Source of the DNA: Myxococcaceae bacterium
GTDB taxonomy: Bacteria; Myxococcota; Myxococcia; Myxococcales; Myxococcaceae
Length of the DNA stretch: 39,778 nucleotides
Direction of reading: 5' to 3'
NCBI GenBank assembly: GCA_019686135.1
Contig: JADGHL010000039.1
Coordinates: 1-39,778 of the forward strand
In this document: positions 1 to 6,527 of the stretch, in pieces
How the letters are laid out: every line of letters starts with the position of its first letter
How positions within the stretch are numbered: the stretch's first letter is position 1
The notes under the pieces: generated by a model
Told to the model about the DNA's origin: nothing
The model's input: only the letters and a program-made list of their open reading frames with translations
The model's database searches: none
Program-made: the position numbers and the translations under genes

Positions 1-1791
1 GGCGCAGGCGAAGACGGTGGTGGCGACGGTGGCGTGCCCGACTCCGGAACGCCGGACCAGCCGATCGTCGACCTGCGCGCGGACGTGAACCGGGACGGCG
101 TGGTCGACCTGTCGCCCGGCGCGGCCGATGACGTCGACGAGGACACCTGGGATGCGACCCATGGCGCCGTGTTCCTCGCCAACATCGACGACGATCAGAA
201 GCAGTGCCCGTACTCGAACCAGCTCAGCGACGTGCAGCTGGCGAAGTGCAACGACGCGGCGGACGAGGTCATCAACGGGGACGACGATCTGCTCGACCTC
301 GCCTGGCTGAAGTCGGTGCCCTGGCCCCAAGCGCCCGACACCGCCACCGCGACCGTCACGGTCACCCTGGGAACCGAACAGTACGTGCGCCTGTTCCGCG
401 AAAGCGACGGCGCGTTGTTGGACTTCGCTCCCGGGACGACGCTGGACGCGGCGGCGCTGCGGAGCGGTCTCGTGCTGGCGATCGAAGCGCGGGACATCGT
501 CCGCGACACGGCGAAGTGGGACGGCTACGTCGACGTGTCGCTGACCGTGTCCACCGCGCCGGGGACGCCGTCCAACCAGATCCTCACCGACACCGTCCGC
601 CTGCGCGTCTCGCCGGTGATGCTCTTCCACCACCTCGAGAAGGCAGAAACGGTCTTCGTCACCGACGCGAAGGGCGACCCGGACTCTCCGAAGTTCCAGG
701 CCGACATCGTCGCGGCGGCGAACGCGGCGGGGACCGCGAACCCGGTCTACAAGGTGTATCTGAACCGCGGCTATCCGGATCAGTGGACGCAGGACTTCTT
801 CGAGAACGGGTACATGGCGATGCCGGCGCCGGACGGCCAGCAGCACGTCATCCGCGTCGCGTACCGGTCCGCGAACATCTACCACAACAGCACGAGCAAC
901 CCTCTGCGCGACTATGGCCGCATCGTCTACCTGCTGCGCGGCAAGGACGTGGCCGCGGTGCAGGAGTACGACCTCAAGTCCGACCCGTCCATGGACACCC
1001 TCAACTCCTTCGGGAACACCGAGATCATCCCGCCGTACACGCTCGGGGATGAGTCCTTCCCGCTGGGGCGGCTGTTCCGCGGCAGCGTGCCCTCGTTCCA
1101 CCCGGACAAGGCGTTCTCGAAGATGCTCGAGAGCCAAAAGGTGCAGCCGCCGGTCTACGTCGACACCTCGTGGCTGCTGGTGGGGCACGTGGACGAGACG
1201 TTCACCTTCCTCAAGGTGAATTCGCCCCGCGGGTGGATCGTCCTCGTCAATGACCCGGCGCTGGCGAGGCAGATGCTGGAGGCGGAGGTCGCGAAGGGGA
1301 ACGGGGACGTGACCATGTTCAAGGGCCAGTACTGGTACGACGACAACTTCGATCCCTACCCGGCCGAGGTGTCGATCAACGACGTGCTGGCCGATGCGGA
1401 CGTCATGAACGAGAGCGCCAGCGCTGCCGTCGAGGTCGCCGCGCAGCTGGACATCGTGCGCGGCGCGACCGGCATCACCGACGCGGAGATCGTCCGCGTG
1501 CCGTACCTGCACGAGCCGTTCGACGGGTACTCGGTTGCGTACCAGCCGGGGACCGCGAACATGCTGGTCCTCTCCGACAGCGTCGTCGCCGTGCCGGATC
1601 CACACGGGCCGGAGATCGGCAATGTCGACATCTTCAAGAAGCAGATGGAGGACGCGCTCGCCCCGTACGGTTACACCATCCGGTGGGTCGACGACTGGAA
1701 CCTGTACCACGCGCTCAGCGGCGAGGTGCACTGCGGCACCAACGCGGCGCGGAGCATCCCCGAACAGCGGTGGTGGGAGAGCGGCCGATGA
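1..1791 (+). CDS. Protein-arginine deiminase (PAD) family protein, 5' end outside window
   Basis: The reading frame is open from base 1, so the start lies upstream; the visible N-terminus is a Gly/Asp-rich linker as found after a lipoprotein or secretion signal. An Asp-rich segment follows (VNRDGVVDL, NIDDDQ, GDDDLLDLA), resembling the calcium-binding middle domain of vertebrate PADs. The C-terminal half is a PAD catalytic domain with all four active-site residues: Asp (codon 793, in WTQDFFENGY), His and Asp (codons 1186 and 1192, in GHVDETF) and the nucleophile Cys (codon 1732, in GEVHCGTN). Spacings (131, 2 and 180 residues) are close to those of PAD4 Asp350/His471/Asp473/Cys645. The family converts protein arginine to citrulline, usually Ca2+-dependently. 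It overlaps the next gene by 4 bases. Family call is firm; secretion, substrate and calcium need are inferred. Confidence 0.93.
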   Translation, partial: GAGEDGGGDGGVPDSGTPDQPIVDLRADVNRDGVVDLSPGAADDVDEDTWDATHGAVFLANIDDDQKQCPYSNQLSDVQLAKCNDAADEVINGDDDLLDLAWLKSVPWPQAPDTATATVTVTLGTEQYVRLFRESDGALLDFAPGTTLDAAALRSGLVLAIEARDIVRDTAKWDGYVDVSLTVSTAPGTPSNQILTDTVRLRVSPVMLFHHLEKAETVFVTDAKGDPDSPKFQADIVAAANAAGTANPVYKVYLNRGYPDQWTQDFFENGYMAMPAPDGQQHVIRVAYRSANIYHNSTSNPLRDYGRIVYLLRGKDVAAVQEYDLKSDPSMDTLNSFGNTEIIPPYTLGDESFPLGRLFRGSVPSFHPDKAFSKMLESQKVQPPVYVDTSWLLVGHVDETFTFLKVNSPRGWIVLVNDPALARQMLEAEVAKGNGDVTMFKGQYWYDDNFDPYPAEVSINDVLADADVMNESASAAVEVAAQLDIVRGATGITDAEIVRVPYLHEPFDGYSVAYQPGTANMLVLSDSVVAVPDPHGPEIGNVDIFKKQMEDALAPYGYTIRWVDDWNLYHALSGEVHCGTNAARSIPEQRWWESGR

Positions 1792-2732
1792 GGAACAACC
1801 AGGTGATGAAGTCCCTGCTCGTTGCCGCGGTGCTGGTCTCCGGCGCGGCGTATGCCGATGGCCTGTTGCTTTCGCCGGCGGAGCTTCCGGAGGCGTCCCG
1901 CGCCGAGCTCGCCGCGCTGATCGCCCGGGCGAAGAAGTCGTCGCCGGAGTCGTTCGAGAAGGTGAAGCACTTCGTCGGCGCCGTGCCGGATTGGGATGCG
2001 CGAAAGCGCGGGCGGCTGGCGCCGGCGTCGGTGGTGTTCCGGCGGATCGGCGACGACGCGTTGTGGCCGATGGTGGAGCTGATCGCCTTCGACGCCGGGC
2101 CGAAGTCCGCCTGGTCGGAGTGGTCGGAGACCGCGCGGCGCGCGCTGGAGATCGGGTTGATCGAAGCGGCCGGCGCGAAGCGGGACGTGCGGCTCGCCCC
2201 GGTGTGGAGCGCGATCCTCGACGGGCCGGAGCAGCGGTTCGAGATCCTCCGCGCCTCGGTGGAGGCGTTGGCGAAGCTGGACACCGATGCGGCCGCGCAG
2301 AAGCTCATCGCCCTCGCCCGGTCGGACGTCGCGGTGAAGCGGGAGGCGGCGCTCGCGGCGATGGGCAACTGCCGCCGGCTGACCGTGGCGCGGGCGCTCG
2401 CGGAGGCGCTGGATGCGCACCCGGAAGCGCTGATGGCGAAGCGGATCATCCGGTCGCTCGGCGATGTGGGCAACGCGTGGGCGTGGCAGACGCCGGCGGT
2501 GAAGGCGCGCTCGGAGGAGGGCGCCATCCGGACGCTCGCGGCCGAGGCGCTGCTGCGCGCGTACCTCGCCTATGACGGCGAGGCGCGGCAGGCCGCGTCC
2601 AATGCGCTCCTGGTCGTCGACGCACCCCAGATGCCCGCGCTCATCGACCGGGCGAAGAAAGGCAGCCCCGACGAGCAGCGCGCGGCGCTCGCCGGGCTCG
2701 AACGGCGGTGGGAGCAGCACCCGCTCCGCTGA
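1788..2732 (+). CDS. Secreted HEAT-repeat-like protein
   Basis: A 314-aa protein starting at an ATG that overlaps the PAD stop (ATGA), so the two genes are probably translationally coupled. The first ~23 residues form a signal peptide (MRNNQVMKSLLVAAVLVSG, then AAYA before the likely cleavage site). The rest is Ala/Leu/Glu-rich helix, with repeated units such as SDVAVKREAALAAMGN and an ARQAASNALLVVDAP segment typical of HEAT/armadillo-like scaffolds. No catalytic motif is visible. The coupling suggests an exported partner or substrate adaptor of the deiminase, which is inference. The gene ends 12 bases before a convergent gene, leaving no room for a terminator between them. Confidence 0.8.
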   Translation: MRNNQVMKSLLVAAVLVSGAAYADGLLLSPAELPEASRAELAALIARAKKSSPESFEKVKHFVGAVPDWDARKRGRLAPASVVFRRIGDDALWPMVELIAFDAGPKSAWSEWSETARRALEIGLIEAAGAKRDVRLAPVWSAILDGPEQRFEILRASVEALAKLDTDAAAQKLIALARSDVAVKREAALAAMGNCRRLTVARALAEALDAHPEALMAKRIIRSLGDVGNAWAWQTPAVKARSEEGAIRTLAAEALLRAYLAYDGEARQAASNALLVVDAPQMPALIDRAKKGSPDEQRAALAGLERRWEQHPLR

Positions 2733-2744
2733 CGGAGCTTCAGC

Positions 2745-5700
2745 TCAGCGCTGCTCCAGCACCAGGTCGCGCGTCTGCAGCAGGTCGACCTGTCCGGCAA
2801 ATTGCGCGAAGCGCTGATAGCGCTCGGGGGGCAGGCGCATCATCCTGAGGCGGAAGTCCTCGTCGATGGTGACCGTGTCGCCCTTCTGCTGTTCGCGGCG
2901 GACGAAGGAGCCGAAGTCCTCCTTCAGCGTCGCCTCGCCGACGGCGCTCCGGAGCACCCACCCGTGCGGCAGCTTCAGCGTGACGTGGGCCACCGTCTCT
3001 TCGCTGCTGTCGACGAACAGCGGCGTGGTGCGTTCGGCCAATTGCACGTAACGCCGCCCCAGCTGCGCCGGGAGCGTGACGCTGCCCAGCACCATCTGGT
3101 TGCCCGACATGTGGGCGAACCCGGGCACGCGGAACGCGTACGTCACCACCAGGTCCTTGCCGACGTCGTCCACGAGCGTCAGCTGCAAATCGCTCATCTC
3201 CGCGCCGCCGAAGTACCGCGACAGCGCGCTCTGCAGCGCCTGTTTGCGCTGGTCGGGCGAAAGCCGCTCGAGGGACTCGGTGACCACGGCCGCGTCGAAC
3301 CCGCGGTAGCGCTCCTCGCCCTTGCCGGTGAGGGTGCCGTCCTCCGCGAGCGTCAGCTCGAGCGTGACGTGCTTGGCCAGTTCGCCCGTGACCGGCGGGG
3401 TGCGCACCTTCTCCAGCGGCCGGCCCGGCTCGGGCAACAGATACGCCTCCGCGTCCGAGGCGGCCTCGGGGAGCTGACCGAACGGGCCGTAGCGCACAAC
3501 CGTATCGAGCCACACCTTCCGGCCGTCGGGGAGCTCCGCGCGCAGCGCGAGGTAGGGGAGGAGGTCGTCGTTGGGGAAGAGGTACGGCGCGGGGTCCGCG
3601 AAGAAGGTGCGCACCGCGGCGATGCGCGTGGGTACGCCTGCCGCCTCCAGCGCCGCCTTCAACGCCCACAGCCGGCTCCCGCGACCCTGAGCGATGGAGT
3701 CCGCCGCGCCGACGCTGAGCCCCGCGTCCGGTCCGGACAGCCGGTGCATCACCGCGGCGTAGATGGCCTGCACCTTCTCCAGGCCCTCTTTGCCAGCGCA
3801 CGCCTCCTCCGCCAGCCGGTCCACCTCGGACGTCCGCCGCCCGCGGTCGAGGAACGCGTCCGCGTAGAGCGCCACCAGGCCTTCGTTGCCGCGCGCGCCG
3901 GCACCGAGCTGCACCCACGGTAGATATTCGTTCGGCGAGGGCGGCGCGTTGGGTTCGGGGATCCACGGCGGGACGTTCAGCTCCTCGTGCCGGTACACGA
4001 GTTGGTCGCCCTCGAGCTTCGGCGGCGCGCTGGTGACGTTGTGCGCGTCCACCTGCATCTGCGAGTCCTTCGGGGCGATCACGGTGTACGTGGACCACGC
4101 GTTCGGCATGCCCGCGACCTGGTAGTAGAAGATGGACGCCGCAAAGCCCGGCTGCGCCGGCCCGCGTGGCGAGTGCGCCTGGAGAAACTCGTACTCCACG
4201 TAGTCGCCCACCTGAACGCCCGGGAGGCTGATCGACTCCTTGCCGGAGATGTCCTCCGGTTCGAGCACGGTGCCATCCGGTTTGATGGTCCGGAGCGAGA
4301 GCACCGCCGCACCGGCGGGGAGATTCACTTCCGCGATGGCGGAGACCCCCTCCTGCGAGAGCGCCTTCTGGATGACGTGGATCCGATCGACCATCGAGCC
4401 ATCCGGGAACGCCTCCACCGCCGCCATGTCCAGCACCAGCGCCGAGGCCGCCTCTTCGGTGCCGTGCTTCGCCTCGTACCGGCGGATCGCCTCGGCGCCG
4501 TCGATCGCATACTCGGACAGAAGCTCCTTCCCGGTCTTCGCGCGGTGCACGCTGCGGCGCAACGCGAGGTCGCCGCCGGCCAGGCGCAGCGCCTTCTCCC
4601 GCGTGGCGAGCGCGTCCTTCGGGCGGCCGGCGAACTCCTGCACGTCGGCGAGCCTGCGCAGGAGCTCGGCGTCCCGTGGCCACAGCGCGGCGGTCTTCTG
4701 GAGCAGCGTCTCCGCGTCCGGGAAGCGGCGAGCTGCCACGTAGAGCGGGATGAGGCTCTGGATCACGCCGAGGTTGGAGGGATCGCGCGCGAGCAGGCCT
4801 TCGTACAGGGCGATCGCCTCCGGCAGGTTGCCGCGGGTGCGCGCGTGCTCGGCGAGACGGGTGCGCGATCCGGGGCAGCCCGCCTGCGCCTGCACCCACC
4901 GGTCCGCCAGCGCCACCGCGTCGCGTCGGCGCGCGAGGTCGTAACGCAGGTTGAGCGCTTCGCAGAGCCCGGGCTGGATGGACAGCGCCTCCTCCGCGCT
5001 CCGTTCCGCCTGCGCGTCGATGCCCATGGCCAGCTCCACGCGCGCGCGGAGCATCGGGACCGGGAAGCCCGCGGGCGTGTACGCCGCCTTCGCGCGCTTC
5101 ACCAGCTCGGATGCCTCCTGCTGGCGGCCGTCGTCCAGCGCGAACTGCGCCCGCATGAGAAGTGCGTCGACGTCACCTTTGTCCCTGTCCAGCGCCGCCT
5201 CGAGGTCGCGCGTGGCACGCGCCCGGGCCACCCGCGAGGGCAGCTCGCGATCCGCCATCGAGAGCCGGGCGCGCAAAGACAGGAGAGCGGGCGTGAGCGG
5301 GGCGGTCGCGGCGAGGTGCGCCATCAGCCGTTCGGCGCCGTCCGCGTCCCGCCCCATGCCGTCTTCGATCGCCACGAAGGACGCGAGCACCGTTCCCACC
5401 TCGTCCTCGAGCGTCCGCGCGTACGACGCCGCATCCGGCCAGGTGGCGGGCGCATCGAGGAGCGGCACGCTTCCGTCCCACTTCGGCGCGGGCCCGGAGG
5501 CGGGGCGGAAGCGGAGGTGCGCGGGTGACCCGTCGGCGCGCATCACCGAGACGGTGAGGCCGGCCATCGCGTCGTGGTTGGACACCTTCAGCATCAGCCG
5601 GTGCGCGCCCACATCGAGCGCGACCGCGCGGGCGCTGACGGTGGAGCGCGCGTGCTCGAAGCTCCGGCGTTCGAACAGCGGCGTGCCGTCGATCCACGCT

Positions 5701-6527
5701 TTGAGGGGCGCGTTGGTCACGCTGCGCACGACGAAGGTGCCAGGCGCCTCCACGTCGAAGTCCGTGGCGAGCACGTACATGTCCCCGTCGGAGGGTTCGC
5801 CGCCCAGGCCCACGCGCCCGTCGGGGAAGTGGAGCACCCGCGGCGGCGTCGGCCCGAAGGGGCCGTCGAACGGACCGCTCAGCGCGCCGTCGCGTTCGGG
5901 CGGCGTGACCTCGTCGAAGGCGATGAGGTGGAACGGCGAGAATGGGCCCGCCAGCGTCCACCCGGTCGGCACGCCCATCTCATCGAGGACCCGGGTCTGG
6001 GCGGCGCCGTCGACGCGTTGGCCGGCGATGGTGGCCACCGCGGAGCGCAACAGGTGTGCCGCGTCCCCGGGCGGGTGCTGCGCGAGCGCCTGCGCCACGC
6101 CGGCGAGGATGCGATCGTCCAGCGCCGTCGAGGTCCCCACCTGCCCGAGCACCTCGCGCGCCGCGGCGGCGCAGAGCGGGTGCGCGGCGGCGCGCGTGCA
6201 GAGGGTGAAGGCGGAGTCGATGACACGCTCGGGGTGCGCTGCGCGGCGCGAAAGCAAAAGCTCGCCGTAGAGCGCCCACGGCTCGGCCGGATCCTCTTTC
6301 AGCGCAGCGTCGAAGCGCGCCTTCGCCCGCTTCGCATCGCCTTCCACGAGCCACGCGTGAAACCCGCCGAGCGCGCGCGTGTGCGCGTCGGCGTGCGGGC
6401 TGTCGGCGTCGCGCGCAGCGGCTTCCAGCTTTCCGGTGGGAGAGGCGATGCGCTTCGGACAGCCGGCGAGGACGAACGCGGCGAGCACCACGGGCGCGAA
6501 GGCGCGCGACGAGCGGAGGGCGTGCAT
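2745..6527 (-). CDS. Large TPR / DUF3857 / transglutaminase-like lipoprotein
   Basis: A 1260-aa protein with a lipoprotein signal (VLAAFVLAGC, lipid-acceptor Cys23). Residues ~60-640 are tetratricopeptide-like helices (for example LRARLSMAD, AIALYEGLLARDPSNLGVI). A DUF3857-type beta domain follows at ~650-800 (VEAFPDGSMVDRIHVIQ, LPGVQVGDYVEYEFL). A transglutaminase-like fold lies at ~870-1000, with a C-terminal beta region after it. Where family members carry a catalytic Cys in a GDCKD-like motif, this protein reads GRGSRLWALKAAL, with Ser951 (codon 3675-3677) at the expected position, so it is probably catalytically dead or altered. It lies 65 bases downstream of a Ser/Thr kinase gene on the same strand, likely one transcript. 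Role unknown; a cell-envelope scaffold is the best inference. Confidence 0.85.
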   Translation of the reverse strand: MHALRSSRAFAPVVLAAFVLAGCPKRIASPTGKLEAAARDADSPHADAHTRALGGFHAWLVEGDAKRAKARFDAALKEDPAEPWALYGELLLSRRAAHPERVIDSAFTLCTRAAAHPLCAAAAREVLGQVGTSTALDDRILAGVAQALAQHPPGDAAHLLRSAVATIAGQRVDGAAQTRVLDEMGVPTGWTLAGPFSPFHLIAFDEVTPPERDGALSGPFDGPFGPTPPRVLHFPDGRVGLGGEPSDGDMYVLATDFDVEAPGTFVVRSVTNAPLKAWIDGTPLFERRSFEHARSTVSARAVALDVGAHRLMLKVSNHDAMAGLTVSVMRADGSPAHLRFRPASGPAPKWDGSVPLLDAPATWPDAASYARTLEDEVGTVLASFVAIEDGMGRDADGAERLMAHLAATAPLTPALLSLRARLSMADRELPSRVARARATRDLEAALDRDKGDVDALLMRAQFALDDGRQQEASELVKRAKAAYTPAGFPVPMLRARVELAMGIDAQAERSAEEALSIQPGLCEALNLRYDLARRRDAVALADRWVQAQAGCPGSRTRLAEHARTRGNLPEAIALYEGLLARDPSNLGVIQSLIPLYVAARRFPDAETLLQKTAALWPRDAELLRRLADVQEFAGRPKDALATREKALRLAGGDLALRRSVHRAKTGKELLSEYAIDGAEAIRRYEAKHGTEEAASALVLDMAAVEAFPDGSMVDRIHVIQKALSQEGVSAIAEVNLPAGAAVLSLRTIKPDGTVLEPEDISGKESISLPGVQVGDYVEYEFLQAHSPRGPAQPGFAASIFYYQVAGMPNAWSTYTVIAPKDSQMQVDAHNVTSAPPKLEGDQLVYRHEELNVPPWIPEPNAPPSPNEYLPWVQLGAGARGNEGLVALYADAFLDRGRRTSEVDRLAEEACAGKEGLEKVQAIYAAVMHRLSGPDAGLSVGAADSIAQGRGSRLWALKAALEAAGVPTRIAAVRTFFADPAPYLFPNDDLLPYLALRAELPDGRKVWLDTVVRYGPFGQLPEAASDAEAYLLPEPGRPLEKVRTPPVTGELAKHVTLELTLAEDGTLTGKGEERYRGFDAAVVTESLERLSPDQRKQALQSALSRYFGGAEMSDLQLTLVDDVGKDLVVTYAFRVPGFAHMSGNQMVLGSVTLPAQLGRRYVQLAERTTPLFVDSSEETVAHVTLKLPHGWVLRSAVGEATLKEDFGSFVRREQQKGDTVTIDEDFRLRMMRLPPERYQRFAQFAGQVDLLQTRDLVLEQR

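Follow-up and report, generated by a model that had tools for sequence, protein, structure and literature searches.

A protein-arginine deiminase gene and its HEAT-repeat neighbour

The window analysed here, a stretch of 39,778 nucleotides, is an entire contig of the 5.5-Mb, 245-contig genome of a Myxococcaceae bacterium (contig JADGHL010000039.1, assembly GCA_019686135.1), and it opens within a gene for a protein-arginine deiminase (PAD). The gene is a single open frame of 596 codons plus a stop, open at its 5' end, and since base 1 is the end of the contig it is not the start of the gene; about 50 first residues of the protein are missing beyond it. The missing 5' end was searched for in the other contigs of the same assembly and none recovered it, nor was a second PAD found in this genome. 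Features of the locus are listed in Table 1.

Table 1. Features of the PAD gene and its neighbour; positions are those of the window
Feature	Position	Strand	Basis
Protein-arginine deiminase gene, 5' truncated by the contig end	1..1791	+	Pfam, phmmer, AlphaFold model
Tail end of a low-complexity linker, which in relatives comes after the lipoprotein signal peptide	1..63	+	Relatives; pLDDT <50 at residues 1-16
PAD_M-like middle domain with putative Asp-rich Ca sites	64..579	+	PAD4 alignment, ligand mapping
PAD_C catalytic domain	580..1779	+	Pfam 194-593, PAD4 alignment, invariance in 59 relatives
Catalytic codons	D265 793-795; H396 1186-1188; D398 1192-1194; C578 1732-1734	+	
Putative calcium switch Asp, D316	946-948	+	PAD4 alignment
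Exported HEAT-repeat partner, 314 aa	1788..2732	+	HEAT_2 in orthologues; AlphaFold solenoid
Probable Sec signal peptide of the HEAT partner, MRNNQVMKSLLVAAVLVSGAAYA followed by DG	1788..1856	+	Read from sequence
Arg-rich loop conserved in the HEAT partner (R74 in 95%)	2001..2024	+	Between helices 53-71 and 80-87
W-A-W motif of the HEAT partner (W231 98%, W233 83%)	2478..2486	+	Conservation; model loop 228-243

Residues 194-593 matched the Pfam PAD family (PF03068), covering positions 2-395 of the 395 in the profile (E=1.8e-84; 284.5 bits against a cut-off of 25), and human PADs were the closest solved structures, with a phmmer match to human PAD1 in the PDB at E=1.9e-44. A profile made from 28 relatives aligned with human PAD4 from around residue 113 through to its C-terminus (E=5e-93). 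A structure prediction, which an earlier note on this DNA had proposed, gave an AlphaFold2 model of the window PAD, built on 28 sequences, with a mean pLDDT of 86.8 and a pTM of 0.86, and the model had the PAD_M+PAD_C fold, with a Z score of 39.3 and 2.4 Å over 518 residues against hPAD4 residues 112-663. Bases 1-1791 thus encode the greater part of a genuine protein-arginine deiminase. The same note had seen in it a three-domain-type enzyme, a reading now rejected: the PAD4 match begins at about residue 113, which is the start of the middle domain, and PAD_N gave no match in the complete relatives scanned, by the closest of which the window PAD was judged, its own N-terminus being missing. 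PAD_M (PF08527) scored sub-threshold on the window protein (E=0.0029). We conclude that this is a two-domain PAD of the bacterial type, PAD_M plus PAD_C without PAD_N, as described by Cummings et al. 2021 (PMC8826395), who reported the two-domain architecture for fungi and for bacteria except late-branching cyanobacteria.

Complete relatives start with a signal peptide and a lipobox Cys, followed typically by a linker of 20-60 residues before PAD_M. A simple lipobox rule was passed by 44 of the 53 complete relatives and the remaining 9 had N-termini that were lipoprotein-like by eye, while some relatives carried unrelated extracellular-type N-terminal modules instead, either somatomedin B repeats (E=3.6e-17) or a bacterial SH3 domain (SH3_3, E=2.7e-6). 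The export suspected earlier is thus supported by homology, but the N-terminus of the window copy itself lies beyond the contig end; judging from its relatives, the window PAD is predicted to be an exported lipoprotein.

The ATG of the downstream gene overlaps the PAD stop codon by 4 bases (ATGA). Its product begins with a hydrophobic segment, and similar N-termini were found in its orthologues. HEAT_2 scored 18.9 bits on the window protein, below the cut-off, and up to 46.8 bits on the orthologues (E down to 3.7e-12). The AlphaFold model (pLDDT 93.2) was an all-helical solenoid of 15 helices whose nearest PDB folds were designed HEAT-like alphaReps (Z up to 15.8) and peptide-binding armadillo proteins. 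As helical repeats match one another non-specifically, these matches to the predicted structure indicate a solenoid only. Besides the two conserved elements in Table 1, a C195-R196-R197 motif was conserved among the orthologues.

Catalytic residues and calcium ligands

In the alignment with PAD4, D265, H396, D398 and C578 corresponded to the catalytic D350, H471, D473 and C645, and all four were invariant in 59/59 distinct relatives, which bears out the complete Asp/His/Asp/Cys active site read earlier from the sequence. The substrate contacts R372/R374 and R639 of PAD4 were not conserved, their places being taken by N292, Y294 and L572, which points either to a different handling of the substrate or to a shift of the alignment at these positions.

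Calcium sites were assigned through the alignment with PAD4 and not from geometry. In PAD4, the Ca3 and Ca4 ions are bound by N153, D155, D157, D165, D176, D179 and D388, and mutants have shown that full activity needs the Ca3/Ca4 ligands, Ca5 being dispensable (PMC3559651). The first six of these positions were occupied by N61, D63, D65, D85, D96 and D99, each of them in 59/59 relatives, and the calcium switch, PAD4 D388, by D316, with Asp in 49 and Asn in 10 of the 59. The Ca1 ligand positions of PAD4 have Q264, E268, F337, T340 and E341 as equivalents here; among the side-chain ligands, Q264 was kept in 59/59 relatives, E268 as Glu in 53/59 and E341 as Glu or Asp in 59/59. Ca5 was partial (D88 kept, V90 in place of PAD4 E170) and Ca2 was lost, F266, R289 and I293 replacing PAD4 E351, D369 and N373, with S290 at S370. 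By sequence, the calcium-activation apparatus thus appears to be mostly retained, minus Ca2. The proposal that the Asp-rich region confers calcium control would accordingly stand as regards the Ca1, Ca3 and Ca4 ligands, which are present in the alignment, but not as regards Ca2, and for Ca5 in part. A C69-C83 pair in the inserted Ca-loop, shared by the 23 rows of alignment A1 that belong to the main clade, would fit an oxidising environment.

The switch Asp (D389 in PAD2) has been stated to be exclusive to animal and late cyanobacterial PADs, and fungal and actinobacterial two-domain PADs have been reported with Gly at this position (Cummings et al., PMC8826395). In the Myxococcota PAD clade, by contrast, Asp appears to be the rule, with a clear G-x-D motif (RGKD, RGPD) within an aligned region that is gappy. 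One of the two Streptomyces PADs aligned also has Asp, and Gly at the switch therefore does not define the two-domain group. These data call into question the exclusivity of the calcium-switch Asp to animal and cyanobacterial PADs; its retention outside these two groups was not found in the literature searched.

Compared with the vertebrate enzymes (PAD1-4; PDB 5n0m, 2dw5, 4n2b), the window PAD shares the PAD_M and PAD_C folds, the Asp/His/Asp/Cys residues, the side-chain ligands of Ca1, Ca3 and Ca4 and the switch Asp, and differs in the absence of PAD_N, the loss of Ca2, the HEAT partner, an identity of 24% and a predicted location as an extracytoplasmic lipoprotein, vertebrate PADs being cytosolic or nuclear. 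A secreted bacterial citrullinating enzyme, as the window PAD is predicted to be, is also known in Porphyromonas gingivalis PPAD, which belongs to another branch, Ca2+-independent and akin to the agmatine deiminases. With the two-domain PADs of Actinobacteria and fungi (PMC8826395), the window PAD has in common the PAD_M+PAD_C architecture, Asn at the D125-equivalent Ca6 ligand, an extra loop between Ca3 ligands and an HH motif at the domain joint. A precedent for activity is the PAD of Cyanothece sp. 8801, which is active and Ca2+-dependent (PMC8826395) and has the switch Asp in common with the window enzyme; compared by its published description, it differs in its three domains and in the reported retention of Ca2/Ca4.

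Pairing of the two genes and the role of the partner

The 4-base overlap between the PAD and HEAT genes was present in 53 of the 59 distinct Myxococcota pairs; four further pairs had gaps of -1, +2, 76 and 223, and in the other two the gene order was swapped with adjacency kept. Searching 193 genomes with a profile of the HEAT partner gave 43 matches at E<=1e-15, all 43 adjoining a PAD gene on the same strand, and no strong match away from a PAD among these genomes with 11 candidates scored per genome, a depth at which distant homologues elsewhere could be missed because HEAT-like candidates are plentiful in these genomes. Coupling of the PAD to an exported HEAT-like protein, to which the earlier note had drawn attention, is thereby supported, and far more strongly than the sequence alone allowed. 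Deeper-branching Myxococcota PADs also had a weaker-scoring HEAT-type gene directly downstream, recognised with the profile in L084, L086-L088, L090, L091, L094 and L099 and by reading the downstream frame in L082, L085 and L089, and in genomes with two such PADs each can own a partner (G001, G005 and G019). The distance matrices of the PAD and HEAT proteins correlated with r=0.91, a value also expected from shared descent alone, which agrees with pairing and does not discriminate. That the genes stay so tightly paired even where they are duplicated or their order is reversed is difficult to account for other than by a functional, probably physical, link. A few Myxococcota PADs had no HEAT partner (L096, L097, L098, L083, L092/L093 and L095) and none was found beside the Streptomyces plasmid PAD genes, indicating that the partner is not indispensable to the enzyme.

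Convergent with the HEAT gene of the window lies a gene for a probable lipoprotein of 1260 aa with TPR repeats and a DUF3857 region (2745-6527, minus strand). No counterpart of it turned up next to other PADs, and matches to kinases were scattered; the more distant neighbours were therefore not counted as part of the module.

We consider the chances about even that a secreted, Ca2+-activated citrullinating lipoprotein PAD and a dedicated binding partner, probably a regulator, form a two-component module of Myxococcota, and we infer PAD activity, Ca2+ dependence, coupled translation and physical binding between PAD and HEAT protein. The PAD would be exported, anchored via its predicted lipidated Cys, and would turn arginines of envelope or extracellular proteins into citrulline by the standard PAD mechanism, with C578 as the nucleophile, D265 and D398 holding the guanidinium and H396 as the general acid. 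Ca2+, which should be more plentiful outside the cytoplasm, would activate the enzyme by binding at Ca3/Ca4 of the middle domain and at Ca1 of the catalytic domain. The HEAT protein would share a transcript with the PAD, its translation coupled to that of the enzyme; it would be exported across the membrane as the PAD is, and there bind the PAD, which it would most likely regulate, either by holding it inactive or by limiting what is modified. We narrowly favour a regulator over an adaptor, a substrate or an immunity protein, mainly because, unrestrained, a PAD released where Ca2+ is present would modify envelope proteins of the cell that made it.

Unlikely, yet foremost among the other readings, is a HEAT protein that serves as a substrate adaptor or scaffold, joining the PAD with its envelope or extracellular targets without restraining the enzyme. 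HEAT solenoids are general protein-binding scaffolds, the nearest folds are designed protein-binding alphaReps and peptide-binding armadillo proteins, and the R74 loop, W231-W233 and C195-R196-R197 place conserved residues in two or more places on the partner; nothing, however, separates an adaptor from a regulator, and helical solenoids match non-specifically. It seems improbable to us that the HEAT protein is the main substrate of the PAD, with citrullination of its conserved arginines switching an envelope function. Several of these arginines are highly conserved, including R74 in a predicted loop, but conserved arginines of repeat proteins are often structural, and PADs usually modify many proteins.

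Ranked after the substrate reading, and likewise improbable, is a toxin-immunity pair, in which the PAD would be a contact or predation toxin acting on envelope proteins of other cells and the periplasmic HEAT protein would protect the producer. The gene overlap and the exported helical-repeat partner resemble effector-immunity pairs, and HEAT-repeat immunity proteins are known: the Imm-HEAT proteins of polymorphic toxin systems (PMC3482391) are likewise encoded next to an effector-like enzyme. The partner enzymes differ; neither PAD nor arginine deiminase is named in the text examined of that paper. Moreover, polymorphic toxins swap their tips, whereas the PAD-HEAT pair has persisted throughout the phylum, its two members diverging smoothly together, and its HEAT protein was not found without a PAD; nor did the 193 genomes, with 11 candidates scored in each, show any orphan immunity gene of the sort that such systems commonly have. 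Very improbable is a retained PAD fold acting on free or peptide arginine for nutrition, with the HEAT neighbour as an unrelated operon passenger, for although deiminases of free arginine and of agmatine belong to the PAD superfamily and the substrate-contact arginines of PAD4 are not conserved, its middle domain and its Ca sites are; moreover, a passenger would neither remain next to the PAD gene when the order is swapped nor be missing everywhere else in 193 genomes, searched with 11 candidates scored in each.

The preferred reading, a PAD under the control of its HEAT partner, bears on the role of bacterial PADs: the function of the partner should show the purpose and control of bacterial citrullination, and a natural protein regulator of PAD, if true, would interest those seeking PAD inhibitors. 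We found no paper on PAD or citrullination in myxobacteria, and none on the PAD-HEAT pair, in the open-access literature. The PAD family itself is already known (Cummings 2021, PMC8826395); for its HEAT-coupled lipoprotein form, no description was found in the literature searched.

Distribution, tree and divergent PADs

A PAD was carried by 54 of the 195 Myxococcota genomes sampled, in most cases together with the exported HEAT partner; PADs have been reported in <1% of bacterial species and in 0.43% of Proteobacteria (PMC8826395). In searches outside Myxococcota, plasmids gave PADs of Actinobacteria only and phages gave none. In a midpoint-rooted tree of PAD4, two Streptomyces PADs and the Myxococcota PADs, the Streptomyces sequences fell among or near the HEAT-linked Myxococcota clade (100/99, 28-row group), which suggests that actinobacterial PADs may derive from Myxococcota, and the cytoplasmic-looking PADs of one genus (L092/L093) grouped with PAD4. 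A more tentative and wider proposal, one that we lean against as a whole, is that extracytoplasmic citrullination is ancient and widespread in Myxococcota, where a Ca2+-activated lipoprotein PAD would be under obligate control by a co-translated HEAT protein, and that the two-domain PADs of actinobacteria, and by a published argument also those of fungi, are descendants of this lineage that arose after partner loss.

The Streptomyces PAD genes lie on megaplasmids (L075 5947-7854 and L076 2821-4806), encode proteins 35-38% identical to the window PAD, and one of them adjoins two-component system genes. The PADs L092 (2449-4710) and L093, from genomes G046 and G131, apparently have no signal peptide and carry a Pfam-recognisable PAD_M (1e-8), a Gly/Pro/Met-rich insert and an extra N-terminal region of about 80 residues, which gave no sequence match to PAD_N; they have no HEAT partner. 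L098 (2538-4610, minus strand; G182:C8:313055-314200) is apparently a pseudo-PAD, in which the catalytic positions align with N/G/G/D and the calcium-site residues of the middle domain are kept, with a sulfatase-like frame downstream. A short C-terminal PAD remnant (L101, G048:C1:9252049-9252225) suggests loss of the PAD gene in that genome. One genome of the window's family harbours a second, divergent PAD (L095 1647-4442; G151:C1:421959-423275), with no HEAT partner seen, to whose C-terminal side a cysteine protease domain of the Ulp1 type (C48; E=9e-6) is fused; it is possibly an effector on eukaryotic-type targets.
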